From a virus: DNA of 26,261 bases. A program made the translations under genes and the position numbers. Below the pieces are notes generated by a model, which worked only from the letters and a program-made list of their open reading frames with translations, searched no databases and had not been told where the DNA came from. The stretch is from the IMG/VR virus record IMGVR_UViG_3300048556_000557, positions 1 through 26,261 of that record; one strand, 5' to 3'. Positions 11,846 to 26,261 of the stretch are shown here, piece after piece (the stretch's first letter is position 1; the number at the start of each line of letters is the position of its first letter).

Positions 11846-12222
11846 TCCTTAGCCATTTTAGAATCAGCCTGTTCAATTACTTCTAGCAAGTAGCGATGAA
11901 CTTCATCAACGTCCCAGTGATATTCGTTATGAAGAATGCTGCCAAAAGAGTTTAATTCAACTTCATGCTCTTCATTCCATCCGCCAACGTCGATTGCATT
12001 ATTTTTAATTTTATCAATAGAACTTACTACATCAAGCTCATCAATTAAATCTTGTTGCTCAAGAATAGATTTTAAATATTCTACACGACTTTTATCGATT
12101 AAAAAATAGATTGAATGAGAAGAGTATACAGTCATCAATGTAAGGTTTTCAGTAAAATTATTTATCTTTTGCATAAGCCAATTATTTATAGTAGCAAAGA
12201 AAATAAATAAAACTTCTTTCAT
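11842..12222 (-). CDS. Hypothetical protein, last gene of the leftward replication operon
   Basis: 126 residues on the minus strand. The start overlaps the helicase stop at 12222 (one shared base), so it is coupled to it. The N-terminal 16 residues (MKEVLFIFFATINNWL) are hydrophobic. The rest is soluble and acidic, with a VSSIDKIKNNAIDVGGWNEE segment and a helical C-terminus (YHWDVDEVHRYLLEVIEQAD). The N-terminus could be a short membrane anchor, or the real start may be an internal Met (residue 17 or 30). A role in replication is suggested only by being the third gene after initiator and helicase. Not recognised. Confidence 0.65.
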   Translation of the reverse strand: MKEVLFIFFATINNWLMQKINNFTENLTLMTVYSSHSIYFLIDKSRVEYLKSILEQQDLIDELDVVSSIDKIKNNAIDVGGWNEEHEVELNSFGSILHNEYHWDVDEVHRYLLEVIEQADSKMAKD

Positions 12223-13958
12223 TAGCCTAGCCCCTGACGTTCTTTGATAAGATCTTTAGTAGTGTCGCCTTCAACGAAAGAAGTTTCATATTGCATCCTT
12301 ACGATGCTCTTCTCAATGAAACCTTTAATACTATCAAGGACTTCTTTGCCTTCTTTCCACACGGCTTGCCGGCCTCTGACTTTAGAATGCCATACTTCTA
12401 AATCTTTATTAAGTTTATCTCCGTCTAACTTAACTTTACGAACAAGCCATGTTGCGTGTGAGACATGAGCTAAAGCATCTGTTCCTCGTATCTCATTTAA
12501 CTGTGGTTCTGGATTGGAATTTGTATCCATACCGATCCTGTTTAGTTGTGCCAAGGTAAATAGATCAATATCAAGCTCCTTTGCTGCTGTCATGAGCCTG
12601 TAGGCTCTATCTTCTAGCATTGCCGCCGGATTGTTAGTAGAAGCACCTTTATGCCTTGCAAGGGCATGAAAATGATCAATTACTACTGCGCGTAACTCAG
12701 GATGCTTCGCTTTCATTGATCGCATTGTATTAATGCAGGTTTCTACGTCTGCACCCCATGGAGACTCAACGAGAATTTTGCCTTGCTTTTCTTCGAGGAT
12801 CATGCTTGTTTGGGCTACAATCTCTGCGATTCTTTGTTGGTTTTGTGTTGCTCCAGGCAGTTCTAGCTCACCAACAGTCACATAGCCATAGTCGTCGCCG
12901 GCATTTCGCCACCAGCGATTACCAAAGAATTGACGACTAAGGTTTGCAATGATCCTTGCTTCTATCGACCTAGAGTCAAGTTCTGCTGAAACAAAGCCGA
13001 CGGTTAGTCCACCCTTGGCTAAGGACGCTGCAACTTGTACACCTAAGGCAGTTTTACCAACACCAGTTCGAGCACCAATGACGAGCAAGCGTCCTGCTCT
13101 TGGCATATTCGGTCTTGGTGGTGAAACTCCGCCATCAATATCAATATCAAAAGCATTGACGCCAGTGGAAACCGGACGGTCTTGTGATTCTGCTTTGATG
13201 ATGTAATCAGTCCAGTTAAGGCGGCCAGAACCTGGATCACCAATGATTGATTGGGTTAAATCAGTGACTTGGCCTTGGTTACCAATTGAGCCACTGAGCA
13301 TACTGATGCCATCCATTGTTCTCTGGTGGATGAATTCAAGTGCCTTTTCTAATTTCGGGTCTGTCTTAAGGGATTGGCCGGCGAGGTATATAGTTTCTTT
13401 GTAAAGCGATAACGCTCTTTTTTGCTTCAAGATATCAAGAGCAGTTGACCACTCTGTCGATTGATCGCCGTATGCATTCATCGTCTCTTCGGATGTTAAC
13501 TCTGATATTGTTGTGCAAAAATCAGAGAATAAAACATCACGGTTCGTGGGATTCATCTGCTCATAGCCAGTGATAAGACTATTTTTTGAAATTGTGCTAC
13601 CGGTGCGCTCACCGATGAACGTCATGTCAATCTCTTTGCCGATGGCACGGAAGCAAGGATTACTCCATAAGTGAGCAGGCAATTCTTGACCATGGCCAAC
13701 GCCAAAGGCAATACGAAATTTTGACCAAAGGTCTCTTGATATACCACTAGGTGAAATTAGAATCCGGCAAAGGATGATTGCTTCTTGGTCAGTTGTATCT
13801 TCTCTGTCGGCAATTGTTGTTGGCTGAAGCTTTTCAACTAATCGAGCAGTACCAACAGTAGTCTCAATAGCTTCTTTGTTGACTTCAATGATTTTGCCAT
13901 CTTCGATCTTTAACAAACCAAGATCAACGGCTTTTTGTACATAGAAAGGTAGTTCCAT
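12222..13958 (-). CDS. dnaB: DnaB-type replicative DNA helicase
   Basis: 578 residues from ATG 13958 on the minus strand. This start is preferred over the ATG at 13973 because GGGAGG lies at good spacing upstream and the ATG makes a TAATG junction with the initiator gene. The N-terminal 220 residues replace the usual DnaB N-domain and are not clearly recognisable. The RecA-type core has Walker A GARTGVGKT near residues 295-303, then FVSAELDSRSIEARI, a Walker B-like VVIDHFHAL near 425, LAQLNR near 470 and EIRGTDALAHVSHATWLVRK, the DnaB pattern around the nucleotide sensor and arginine finger. His follows the Walker B Asp where Tyr is usual. It unwinds the fork as a hexamer, presumably with the primase at 23541. 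Confidence 0.9.
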   Translation of the reverse strand: MELPFYVQKAVDLGLLKIEDGKIIEVNKEAIETTVGTARLVEKLQPTTIADREDTTDQEAIILCRILISPSGISRDLWSKFRIAFGVGHGQELPAHLWSNPCFRAIGKEIDMTFIGERTGSTISKNSLITGYEQMNPTNRDVLFSDFCTTISELTSEETMNAYGDQSTEWSTALDILKQKRALSLYKETIYLAGQSLKTDPKLEKALEFIHQRTMDGISMLSGSIGNQGQVTDLTQSIIGDPGSGRLNWTDYIIKAESQDRPVSTGVNAFDIDIDGGVSPPRPNMPRAGRLLVIGARTGVGKTALGVQVAASLAKGGLTVGFVSAELDSRSIEARIIANLSRQFFGNRWWRNAGDDYGYVTVGELELPGATQNQQRIAEIVAQTSMILEEKQGKILVESPWGADVETCINTMRSMKAKHPELRAVVIDHFHALARHKGASTNNPAAMLEDRAYRLMTAAKELDIDLFTLAQLNRIGMDTNSNPEPQLNEIRGTDALAHVSHATWLVRKVKLDGDKLNKDLEVWHSKVRGRQAVWKEGKEVLDSIKGFIEKSIVRMQYETSFVEGDTTKDLIKERQGLG

Positions 13959-14905
13959 TAGATGTCCTCCCATTTAATGCCAGTTTCTTCAAGCGACTTG
14001 ATATCTTCAGCTTTTAATCTAATAAATCTTTTTGTGCAATCGTCATTTGGATCATTCATTCTAATTTGATAATCCAATGCTTTGATGCTATCAATAAGTG
14101 CCTGTTGTTTATCATCATATTGTACAGGTTTTTCTTCTGCAGGCTTATCGTCATAAGACTCACCATCTAAATATAAATTTTCAACATTTTTCATTTTAGT
14201 GTCATTTGGACTTCCATAGCCAAAAACAGCATTGAAGTTTCTAGATGACTTGTCAACAGTTCTAGTCCAAAAATTACTTGCTTTTAAACCTCTGCAGACA
14301 GCACAGATAAATTCAGCCAACTCTTTCTTTTCCAGGCCAAGGTTTTTTAGATGCTTATTGGCGCATTCTTTTTGCTTGGTCGATAGCACTCTAATTTTTG
14401 AGAAGGTTTCAGGCTTGCAGGCATTCCAAGCTTCAATGATGATTGTCTTTTCATTAATAATTTCTTTTGGCTTTATTGTATCTTTTGTTACAGTTTTGAC
14501 CAGTTCTATCTTTTCTACAGGCTCTCCTCTGAGCTTATTGCATTCTTGGCAGATTTCGTCAGTAACAAAACGCCGAGATGTCTCATAAGCAGTCACAGGA
14601 TCATGCATTGTCACCGTTTTGCCGTCGGAACTGATTGAAATAAATCCCTCTTCTTCTAGTTGCGCCAAGCATTCACGACGATTTTTTGTACCACAGCCCA
14701 TCTTTAGCTCGCATGAATGCCAAGAAATCTGCCTGGAATTGCGTTCAGTTGAAGCCAGCCAGCACCAAAGAAGTCTTGCTTGTCCGCTTAGGCGTGAGTT
14801 GAACAATATTTCGTCAATAGGTGCCTTTATCCAGCCGGACTGAAGTTGAAAGTCAAGATCTATTTGTGCCAGTCGGCCAATTGGTGGCTTATGCCGTGGA
14901 TTCAT
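13958..14905 (-). CDS. Putative replication initiator / helicase loader with N-terminal winged-helix domain
   Basis: 315 residues on the minus strand. Residues about 20-120 look like a winged-helix DNA-binding domain: SGQARLLWCWLAS, then a recognition-helix region (GTKNRRECLAQLEEEGFISI) and a wing (SSDGKTVTM), as in RepA/O-type initiators and replisome organisers. A Cys-x2-Cys (CQEC, residues about 139-142) follows. The middle (IEAWNACKPETFSKIRVLST) and FWTRTVDKSSRNFNAVFGYG resemble the C-terminal helper domain of phage replication proteins (W-N ... F-L/W ... A-x-F-G). It is translationally coupled to the helicase and starts next to the iteron array, as expected for an initiator that binds the array and loads the helicase. 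Function is inferred from domain layout and context. Confidence 0.72.
   Translation of the reverse strand: MNPRHKPPIGRLAQIDLDFQLQSGWIKAPIDEILFNSRLSGQARLLWCWLASTERNSRQISWHSCELKMGCGTKNRRECLAQLEEEGFISISSDGKTVTMHDPVTAYETSRRFVTDEICQECNKLRGEPVEKIELVKTVTKDTIKPKEIINEKTIIIEAWNACKPETFSKIRVLSTKQKECANKHLKNLGLEKKELAEFICAVCRGLKASNFWTRTVDKSSRNFNAVFGYGSPNDTKMKNVENLYLDGESYDDKPAEEKPVQYDDKQQALIDSIKALDYQIRMNDPNDDCTKRFIRLKAEDIKSLEETGIKWEDI
13966..13971 (-). promoter_or_regulatory. Shine-Dalgarno site that fixes the helicase start
   Basis: On the minus strand GGGAGG lies seven bases before the ATG at 13958. The alternative ATG at 13973 would place this site inside the coding sequence, so the protein should begin MELPFYVQK. 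Confidence 0.75.
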
Positions 14906-14931
14906 GAAATTTTATCGATGCCTGAACGTTA

Positions 14932-15069
14932 GGGGGGTTGTCAACAGGGGGGTATCCAAGAAGGGGGGTGTCTTCAGGACAGGGTGTCCTCAGGTAACCC
15001 TAAAGGTATCCTCAGGTAACCCTAAAGGTGTCCTCAGGTAACCTTTGGGGGTGTCCTCAGGAAACCCCC
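14932..15069 (+). repeat. Iteron and G-run array, candidate replication origin
   Basis: Seven units begin with a G run followed by T-x-TC. Three have six G (14932, 14947 and 14963, every 15-16 bases). Four continue as GG(G)TGTCCTCAGG or GGTATCCTCAGG with cores starting at 14984, 15006, 15028 and 15051, spaced 22, 22 and 23 bases; the first two are followed by TAACCCTAAA, the third by TAACC. The last unit can fold as a hairpin, TGGGGGT (15046-15052) with ACCCCCA (15064-15070). The array lies between the leftward initiator gene and the rightward genes and is followed by a 50-base AT-rich stretch. Iterons next to an initiator gene and an AT-rich element are the classical layout of an initiator-dependent origin. 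That it is the origin, rather than an operator array, is inference. Confidence 0.65.
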
Positions 15070-15081
15070 ATCTATATAGAT
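15070..15081. promoter_or_regulatory. Perfect palindrome touching the -35 element, possible operator
   Basis: ATCTATATAGAT is its own reverse complement. Its last T is the first base of the -35 hexamer at 15081. A dimeric regulator bound here would block the promoter. It also forms the start of the AT-rich stretch that could melt at an origin. Confidence 0.4.
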
Positions 15082-15109
15082 TGATTTAGAAGAATAAAAG
15101 AAATAGAAT
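15081..15109 (+). promoter_or_regulatory. Sigma-70-type promoter for the rightward recombination operon
   Basis: TTGATT at 15081-15086 and TAGAAT at 15104-15109 are separated by exactly 17 bases; the -10 matches TATAAT at five of six positions. The predicted start near 15116 gives a short leader before the ATG at 15130. It reads away from the initiator gene and resembles a host-type early promoter. Confidence 0.6.
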
Positions 15110-15129
15110 TAATACAACGCGCGAGGGGA

Positions 15130-15537
15130 ATGAAAAAAGACGGCCACCGGAACAAAAAAGGAGAAACTTGGCAAGAAGCCAAGAGGAGATACAACCGGAA
15201 GTACTACAAGAAAAACCAAGACCAGCTCAAAGAGGCCCAGAAGGCCCGTGAAGCGGCCAAAAGACGCGCTCAGGTACTACGACAAGAAAAAGCGAAGAAA
15301 GCTCGCCTACAGGGCCTTGCAAAGGGCAGAGAGGTGCAAAAGAAAAAACAAGAAAAATGGGATGAGCTAGGCGTTATCGTCGCAAGAATGAACTTGCACG
15401 CCGGATTAAGCCAAAAAGAGATCTTCAGGATCCTGCAAGGATTGGCCAGTAGTCGTCAGATTTCTCAATGGATTGCAAGAGGCAAAAAGACTGTTAGGTT
15501 GAAAAGACCAACAGACAATTCTTCAAAAAATGGCTGA
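15130..15537 (+). CDS. Very basic helical protein with C-terminal helix-turn-helix-like segment
   Basis: 135 residues starting MKKDGHRNKKGETWQEAKRR. Residues about 10-80 are almost entirely Lys, Arg, Glu, Gln and Ala, predicted as a long charged helix or coiled coil. Residues about 90-120 (NLHAGLSQKEIFRILQGLAS, then SRQISQWIARGK) look like a helix-turn-helix (LSQKEIFRIL-x(5)-SSRQISQWI), as in small terminase or regulator DNA-binding heads. It is first after the origin candidate and promoter, so a DNA-binding regulator or replication accessory is plausible. GAGGGG ends only one base before the ATG, too close for a normal Shine-Dalgarno site. No family recognised. Confidence 0.65.
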   Translation: MKKDGHRNKKGETWQEAKRRYNRKYYKKNQDQLKEAQKAREAAKRRAQVLRQEKAKKARLQGLAKGREVQKKKQEKWDELGVIVARMNLHAGLSQKEIFRILQGLASSRQISQWIARGKKTVRLKRPTDNSSKNG

Positions 15538-16201
15538 TCTACCGAATCTCAAAGGTGTTGCAACTCAAGATTTAGTTGAGACAATCGGGAGCGGTCGCTT
15601 TCAGGCCAGTTACATCAACTGGAGCCGGACGATGCAGCTGTTCCGCGAAAATGCCAGTGGATGGACCGTTGAAGCTGTATTTAATGTTGACGGCACACTT
15701 CTCCATCGCGCTCCAGTCGGTGGCTATTTATTGCTGCGACTTCGTCATTTAGATGGAACTAAGACTCCTGAAGTCCCTCAGGCAATCATGGACAACCGCA
15801 ACCAATCGATTGCGTATGACAAAATCACTGCGCGAGACATCACTGATACACATCGCCGGGGTTCCTGCTTAGTCCTTGCATTCCAGACAGGATTGGCCCA
15901 TGAGCTATGGGCGAAGATGCCTCTTGAGAATGGTTATCAAGTAGCGGATGACCAGGAGATTAAGCAGGTAAAGTCCCAGTCGACGACGACGAAGTCTGCT
16001 TCGGCCACTGCGGAGGTTGCCAAGGCGTCTAAGAAAGACTTTGTGGCTATCGCTGAAAAGATGGGTTTAGTGGAGCCTGCCATTAAGTCTTTGATGGCGA
16101 AAGTTGATGACAACTTCGATGTTGGTATCAAGACTCTTAAGTCAAAGGACAAAGATTTTGTTTTGAAACTGAACGAGTCCTTTCAAGCCAGTGGTTACTA
16201 A
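15530..16201 (+). CDS. Single-strand annealing recombinase, DUF1071 (Sak3)-like
   Basis: 223 residues, overlapping the upstream gene by eight bases. ASYINWSRTMQLFRENASGW, VGGYLLLRLRHLDG, EVPQAIMDNRNQSIAYDKIT and ARDITDTHRRGSCLVLAFQT follow the order of DUF1071/Sak3 proteins (an L-S/N-W motif early, strand pairs, a conserved M-D-x-x-N, then a D-x-x-x-x-x-R helix with a GLA or GLG end). The C-terminus (residues 140-223) is a low-complexity Ser/Thr/Ala/Lys linker plus a helical tail, as in other annealing proteins. It would anneal complementary single strands during phage recombination with SSB, the exonuclease at 19012 and RusA. The assignment rests on remembered motif order. Confidence 0.65.
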   Translation: MADLPNLKGVATQDLVETIGSGRFQASYINWSRTMQLFRENASGWTVEAVFNVDGTLLHRAPVGGYLLLRLRHLDGTKTPEVPQAIMDNRNQSIAYDKITARDITDTHRRGSCLVLAFQTGLAHELWAKMPLENGYQVADDQEIKQVKSQSTTTKSASATAEVAKASKKDFVAIAEKMGLVEPAIKSLMAKVDDNFDVGIKTLKSKDKDFVLKLNESFQASGY

Positions 16202-25747: not shown

Positions 25748-26261
25748 ATGCCAGAATTTCAGTCAACAGCTCCTAGTGCAGAAGCCGTTTTTTATCGTAC
25801 ATATTCACGCAGAAAAGCGGACGGCCAGCGGGAGACTTTTAAAGAAGCCATGACTCGCTGTGTCAACTCTATTGCAGAAGTTGGCAAGTTTACTGCGGAG
25901 GAAAAAAGCCTTGTAATTGACCAGGCATTGAAGCAGCATTGCTTCCCTTCTGGAAGGGCGTTTTGGGTAGCAGGTACGGAGTGGGGAAGCCAGCAAAAGA
26001 ACTTTAGTGGCTGGTATAATTGCACCTCTACAAACGTAAATGAAATCAGTGCGTTTCGCCACATCATGGAATTAGCCATGATGGGTTCAGGTACTGGCGC
26101 AATGCTTGAACAGTCGAATATCAATTCACTGCCGGCAATTGTTACGCAAATCAATATTGTCAGTGTCGAAGACGCTGGTGACATCCTGCCACCTGACCGG
26201 CTGGAACAAACTGAGTTTTTAAACCTTGATAATGGCAACGTTGTTGTTTATGTCGGTGACA
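25748..26261 (+). CDS. nrdJ: Ribonucleotide reductase, class II (B12-dependent) type, N-terminal part (3' end outside the window)
   Basis: At least 171 residues, open to the end of the window. The start MPEFQSTAPSAEAVFYRTYS and RRKADGQRETFKEAMTRCVN resemble the N-terminus of monomeric adenosylcobalamin-dependent reductases of cyanobacteria and cyanophages. FPSGRAFWVAGTEWG and WYNCTSTNV place Cys92 where one of the redox pair is expected, and MELAMMGSGTGAMLE follows in usual order. The enzyme converts ribonucleotides to deoxynucleotides for phage DNA synthesis. AAGG upstream of ATG 25748 is a fair ribosome binding site. The radical and second redox Cys are beyond the window, so the class call rests on the N-terminal pattern. 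Confidence 0.8.
   Translation, partial: MPEFQSTAPSAEAVFYRTYSRRKADGQRETFKEAMTRCVNSIAEVGKFTAEEKSLVIDQALKQHCFPSGRAFWVAGTEWGSQQKNFSGWYNCTSTNVNEISAFRHIMELAMMGSGTGAMLEQSNINSLPAIVTQINIVSVEDAGDILPPDRLEQTEFLNLDNGNVVVYVGD

Follow-up and report, generated by a model that had tools for sequence, protein, structure and literature searches.

A palindromic repeat array beside a candidate winged-helix initiator gene as a likely replication origin in relatives of Synechococcus phages S-CRES1-3 and S-CBS2

Introduction

Phage SPP1 has two origins, oriL and oriR, in which repeats and AT-rich DNA are bound by G38P, and the complex at oriR is thought to stall forks and to start recombination-dependent replication (PMC6316719, PMC3485210). 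In phage lambda, the O protein is a dimeric initiator that binds iterons next to an AT-rich tract (PMC7466680); the iterons, four in number and semi-palindromic, stand at a spacing of 20-24 bp, and the AT-rich tract follows them (PMC7466680; NC_001416). The RepA_N initiators, such as pTZ2162/pSK41 RepA and PLE RepA, combine a DnaD-type winged-helix N-terminal domain with semi-palindromic iterons (PMC7145576). For cyanophages, a literature search on iterons and origins of replication returned another system only.

In this study, we describe a locus of this lambda-O / SPP1-G38P / RepA_N type in a 26,261-base virus record, IMGVR_UViG_3300048556_000557 (the window, meaning the whole stretch that was analysed); among named viruses, the Synechococcus phages S-CRES1-3 and S-CBS2 are its closest relatives. 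The system found there bears a resemblance to each of those just described. As in SPP1, the gene for the putative origin-binding protein lies beside that for a DnaB-type helicase, and an annealing protein, an SSB and a RusA-type resolvase are its companions; a remote locus in part of the relatives may correspond to one of the two distant SPP1 origins of repeats and AT-rich unwinding DNA, and oriR lies in a long intergenic region, as do the remote loci described below other than that of S-CRES1. G38P is likened here by description, not by protein sequence, and SPP1 oriL differs in lying inside gene 38 and in having sites described as direct repeats, whereas the array reported here is palindromic and occupies a divergent gap. 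The lambda origin also lies inside its initiator gene, O, whereas the window array is found between genes and has an additional zone of half-sites. A profile comparison detected no homology between lambda O and the candidate initiator (hhalign probability 0.7%), which together with the position of the array outside the initiator gene rules out membership of the lambda O family. With RepA_N systems the locus shares semi-palindromic iterons and possibly the DnaD-like winged-helix N terminus, and 5kbj and 4pta are among the structural matches of the protein; it differs in its spacer, TCA in the window as against an A-tract, and the Pfam hits of 18 initiator family members, taken up to E 0.5, do not include RepA_N (PF06970).

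Results

An array of palindromic repeats in a divergent gap

The array is situated between 14905 and 15130, outside the initiator gene and between two operons that read away from each other, with the following genes closest to it:

12222-13973, minus strand: DnaB-like replicative helicase, the gene that comes after the initiator in its operon
13958-14905, minus strand: candidate initiator gene, encoding a predicted N-terminal winged helix and a conserved C-terminal region
15130-15537, plus strand: orf135, first gene of the rightward operon, a small basic protein with an HTH-like C terminus (by eye)
15530-16201, plus strand: Sak/Rad52-type single-strand annealing protein

Rightward of the array, orf135 and Sak/Rad52 are followed by a sigma factor, SSB, RusA, an exonuclease, terminase and primase. 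A DNA search of 13700-15700 in phages found only a short match to S-CRES3 in the Sak gene, and a search of bacterial genome contigs found no relative. DnaA-box-like sites are fewer in the window than expected by chance. At the window end, an ORF (25748-26260) that runs off the record resembles, by eye, the beginning of a ribonucleotide reductase, an enzyme that is annotated in S-CRES1.

The gap contains seven repeat units, all given on the plus strand:

14936-14942, plus strand: half-site 1, GGTTGTC, overlapping the opposite-strand TTGACA
14951-14957, plus strand: half-site 2, GGTATCC
14967-14973, plus strand: half-site 3, GGTGTCT, with a degenerate right half (GGACAGG)
14983-14999, plus strand: iteron 4, GGTGTCC-TCA-GGTAACC
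15005-15021, plus strand: iteron 5, GGTATCC-TCA-GGTAACC
15027-15043, plus strand: iteron 6, GGTGTCC-TCA-GGTAACC
15050-15066, plus strand: iteron 7, GGTGTCC-TCA-GGAAACC, the copy closest to a perfect palindrome

Units 4-7 are 17-base imperfect palindromes of the form GGTNTCC-TCA-GGNAACC (7-3-7). An earlier note on this DNA had placed seven units at 14906-15129, where they are indeed found, and had described all of them as beginning with a G run. This is only partly right, since six-G runs mark units 1-3 (14932-14937, 14947-14952 and 14963-14968) and units 5 and 6 open with AAAGG instead of a long G run. The half-site starts listed above give spacings of 15, 16, 16, 22, 22 and 23 bases, so that the 15-16-base spacing noted for the six-G units extends through unit 4 before the reported 22-23-base spacing begins; TCCTCAGG is common to the later units (4-7), as the note had it. 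Its 7-bp hairpin at the last repeat exists as an inverted repeat and is longer than was thought, with nine of ten arm positions complementary in GGGGGTGTCC-TCA-GGAAACCCCC; units 4-6 are weaker palindromes. The start of the initiator ORF does lie 26 bases from the first G run.

The array is the top-ranked place in an unbiased scan of all 26 kb. Its palindromic-repeat score is 14, against a maximum of 8 among 1000 dinucleotide shuffles, none of which reaches 14. With up to three mismatches, GGTGTCCTCAGGNAACC matches the window five times, always within the array (0.09 matches expected).

Four further elements lie beside or within the array:

14939-14944, minus strand: TTGACA, -35-like element of the leftward operon
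15070-15081, no strand assigned: ATCTATATAGAT palindrome
15073-15112, no strand assigned: AT-rich DNA of 15% G+C, a candidate unwinding element
15081-15109, plus strand: promoter-like TTGATT-17-TAGAAT (9/12; about 0.5 expected by chance)

The AT-rich stretch that the note saw after the array is confirmed, and just 0.06% of window 40-mers are as low in G+C; judged by base composition alone, a candidate unwinding element adjoins the repeats. The palindrome also directly follows the array in the related loci L014-L017, and its TATATAGAT-like core is present in L018-L020. TGTCAA is found upstream of initiator genes in several relatives as well; no consensus -10 for the leftward TTGACA was found in the window.

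Position and geometry of the array in relatives

Relatives were gathered by searches with the annealing protein and with alignments of the initiator, and their divergent gaps were compared. Repeated 7-3-7 palindromes occupy this gap in 17 distinct genomes, including the window, S-CRES1, S-CRES3 and S-CBS2, and in each case the score is higher than in any of 60 shuffles of that gap. As a control, the same scoring recovers the four annotated iterons of the lambda origin as palindromes with a spacer of 3-5 (NC_001416). Spacer scores summed over sixteen regions are best for odd spacers of 1-3 (224 for a spacer of 3, 215 for 1, about 105 for even spacers). The earlier note had suggested looking for the same array in relatives and had named genes kept with the array lost as evidence against an origin; position and geometry are kept in all 17 genomes with a scorable array, while L022 and PSS2, two more distant loci, have no clear array in the gap.

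The half-sites themselves differ among the genomes: GGTNTCC in the window, GGTGTAC in L018, GGTNGCC in L020, GGTCTCA in L016, a TTCCA core in L017, CGTTGCA in L027, GTGGACA in S-CRES1, TACCCAA in S-CRES3 and TGCCCAC in S-CBS2. L018/L019 and L020 show the same shift as the window, from 15-16-base spacing to one of about 22 bases. All 17 genomes have a 40-base stretch of 12.5-27.5% G+C on the right of the array, away from the initiator. In S-CRES1, S-CRES3 and S-CBS2 the gene order matches that of the window and the array lies in the equivalent gap; it is absent from the annotated features shown for these regions.

Half-sites follow the predicted winged helix of the candidate initiator

The initiator belongs to a family without a convincing Pfam, NCBIfam or PHROG model match. 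Pfam and NCBIfam searches returned no family above cut-off, a PHROG search with the window protein at 0.001 gave no match, and at 0.01 a few family members weakly matched DnaD-like helicase loader PHROGs. An AlphaFold2 model built from 14 sequences (mean pLDDT 76, pTM 0.38) is interpretable for single domains alone. Because Foldseek against the PDB yielded no match with E < 0.001, the statement on the fold rests on a second look with VIA-align, which matched the winged helix (about residues 22-108, with helix 73-86 as the predicted recognition helix) to primosomal DnaB (5wtn, Z 10.4), a RepA_N-type Rep-DNA complex (5kbj, Z 7.3), 4pta (Z 7.0) and RctB domain 1 (5ubd, Z 6.3). Scores of Z < 8 are common among winged helices, and 5wtn alone stands clearly above them. 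The C-terminal region is conserved as AWNxxKP ... VFGxGxPxDxKxxNVExLY.

Half-site distance among the genomes correlates with winged-helix distance when the initiator C terminus is controlled for (partial Mantel r 0.69, P 0.0005) and when the helicase is controlled for (r 0.68, P 0.0005). The reverse tests, controlling for the winged helix, gave r 0.17 (P 0.06) for the C terminus and r -0.09 (P 0.75) for the helicase. These tests leave some effect of shared ancestry, and their distances come from one chosen site set per genome.

Independent evidence comes from the trio L015, L016 and L017. In L015 and L017, orf135 is 99.2% identical (132/133 residues) and the half-site cores are TCTCA versus TTCCA, so that orf135 is rejected as the specificity determinant. 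Between their initiators, the changes G70H, S73P and T74S (window numbering) fall where the predicted recognition helix begins; since the two proteins are 74% identical over the first 100 residues and so differ elsewhere too, the trio argues against orf135 and does not alone single out the helix residues. As half-sites track the winged helix rather than the helicase, and differ where orf135 is nearly unchanged, it is very probably the 13958-14905 product that reads the array.

A remote second site in six related genomes

Scanning whole relatives, each with the half-site motif of its own lineage, we found a second site or array with that half-site in six related genomes, far from the first and in non-coding, AT-rich DNA:

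S-CRES1, 31517-31663: remote array of seven sites
S-CRES3, 29696-29781: remote array of four sites
G007, G014 and G003: two remote sites each
G008: one remote site

In both S-CRES1 and S-CRES3, the two arrays take genome-wide ranks 1 and 2. The remote loci occupy long gaps, close to the most AT-rich DNA of their genomes; that of S-CRES1 lies in a stretch with two short annotated ORFs, which are doubtful as real genes. Scans of S-CBS2 and of the GTTGCA-type genomes G006, G009, G011 and G012 found no remote array, though some of these contigs may be incomplete. G014, a close relative of the window, has its remote site 21.8 kb rightward of the main array; a site of the window at an equal distance would lie past the window's end.

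The 16-mer TTACAGAGCCTTACAG (0-1 mismatch) occurs 210-396 bases from the remote site in four genomes (S-CRES1 31873, G007 27901, G008 20785 and G014 27943). It has no other match among the 15 sequences that were scanned. When pieces with remote loci were scanned for Rfam families and tRNAs, nothing fell over the remote arrays.

Discussion

We consider the array probably to be a set of sites for the 13958-14905 initiator that would serve as an origin, in helicase loading and probably also in operon control. The initiator-iteron origin proposed in the earlier note thereby stands in two parts of different strength. An initiator-iteron system made up of the array and this protein is well supported at the sequence level, by the conservation of its place and geometry, the covariation of half-sites with the winged helix, the predicted fold and the lambda control. 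That the window array is a replication origin in the strict sense is likely, with the second site of six related genomes as a rival.

The initiator would bind the array through its N-terminal winged helix, probably as a dimer, with one dimer per palindrome; the half-site centres are 10 bp, or one helical turn, apart, and the three leftmost units would be single half-sites. The filled array may then form a nucleoprotein complex that helps to melt the AT-rich stretch on its right, and the C-terminal region of the initiator is suggested to load the DnaB-like helicase encoded by the neighbouring gene. With divergent operons on either side of the sites, which touch TTGACA at the left and the promoter-like sequence at the right, binding probably also regulates transcription of the initiator/helicase and recombination genes. 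Where a remote site exists, it may act as a second origin or as a fork barrier for recombination-dependent replication, by analogy with SPP1 oriL/oriR.

In the main rival reading, the window array would be no more than an operator for the two divergent operons, and replication would start at the remote AT-rich locus. The main origin could then lie at that locus, leaving the window array mainly the role of an operator, because where both occur the remote site is the nearer to the most AT-rich DNA; it carries the same half-sites in S-CRES1, S-CRES3, G003, G007, G008 and G014, and the conserved 16-mer lies nearby in four of these. GC skew in S-CRES1 also turns past the remote array, by about 1.3 kb and among mostly plus-strand genes, although skew does not decide between the two readings. 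However, window-type arrays always come with an AT-rich stretch of their own, and no remote array was found in several relatives, some of them on contigs that may be incomplete, so we regard this reading as rather unlikely, if a serious contender. The cumulative skew of the window, which the earlier note had expected to have its minimum here, does dip locally beside the initiator, but neither supports nor refutes an origin because gene direction alone predicts such a dip.

A reading in which orf135 or some other repressor, and not the initiator, uses the repeats as operators would suit the position of orf135 next to the array and its HTH-like C terminus; given half-sites that change while orf135 stays nearly the same, and that follow the initiator winged helix, we find this very improbable. 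Least plausible of all is the G-quadruplex that the earlier note read from the G runs. Three six-G runs do occur in the window and in L013/L014, and L020 and L100 have runs of five or six G, yet the proposal fails as a conserved feature because L015-L019 lack such runs and keep the array, its half-site spacing and the genes; the runs can be accounted for as flanks of GGTNTCC half-sites.

Returning to the initiator-iteron reading, we tentatively put forward a wider possibility, namely that in this family winged-helix specificity and iteron sequence have repeatedly changed together at a fixed geometry while serving two distant loci, a start site and a second origin or fork barrier. If true, the family would offer a natural series of matched proteins and sites that might reveal a code by which DnaD/RepA_N-type winged helices recognise DNA. 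The matched initiator/half-site pairs, including the close pair L015/L017, would provide a test of how winged helices read DNA and of how initiator and site stay matched while both change. Phages of this group also gain a concrete, testable candidate start site and initiator, and the remote site may extend the SPP1 model, in which an origin is combined with a fork barrier, to a case outside the Firmicutes.

Additional features of the relatives

The most AT-rich place of the G007 contig (24841-25066; L113) carries palindromic repeats of the ATGTATT type, about 2.4 kb from the remote site. The Rfam and tRNA scans detected tRNA-Leu, tRNA-Ile and a glutamine riboswitch. The tRNA-Leu (taa) lies at L113:12712-12795 and L149:3318-3401, in two close relatives of the window, and the glutamine riboswitch match at L117:14590-14700, in G008.
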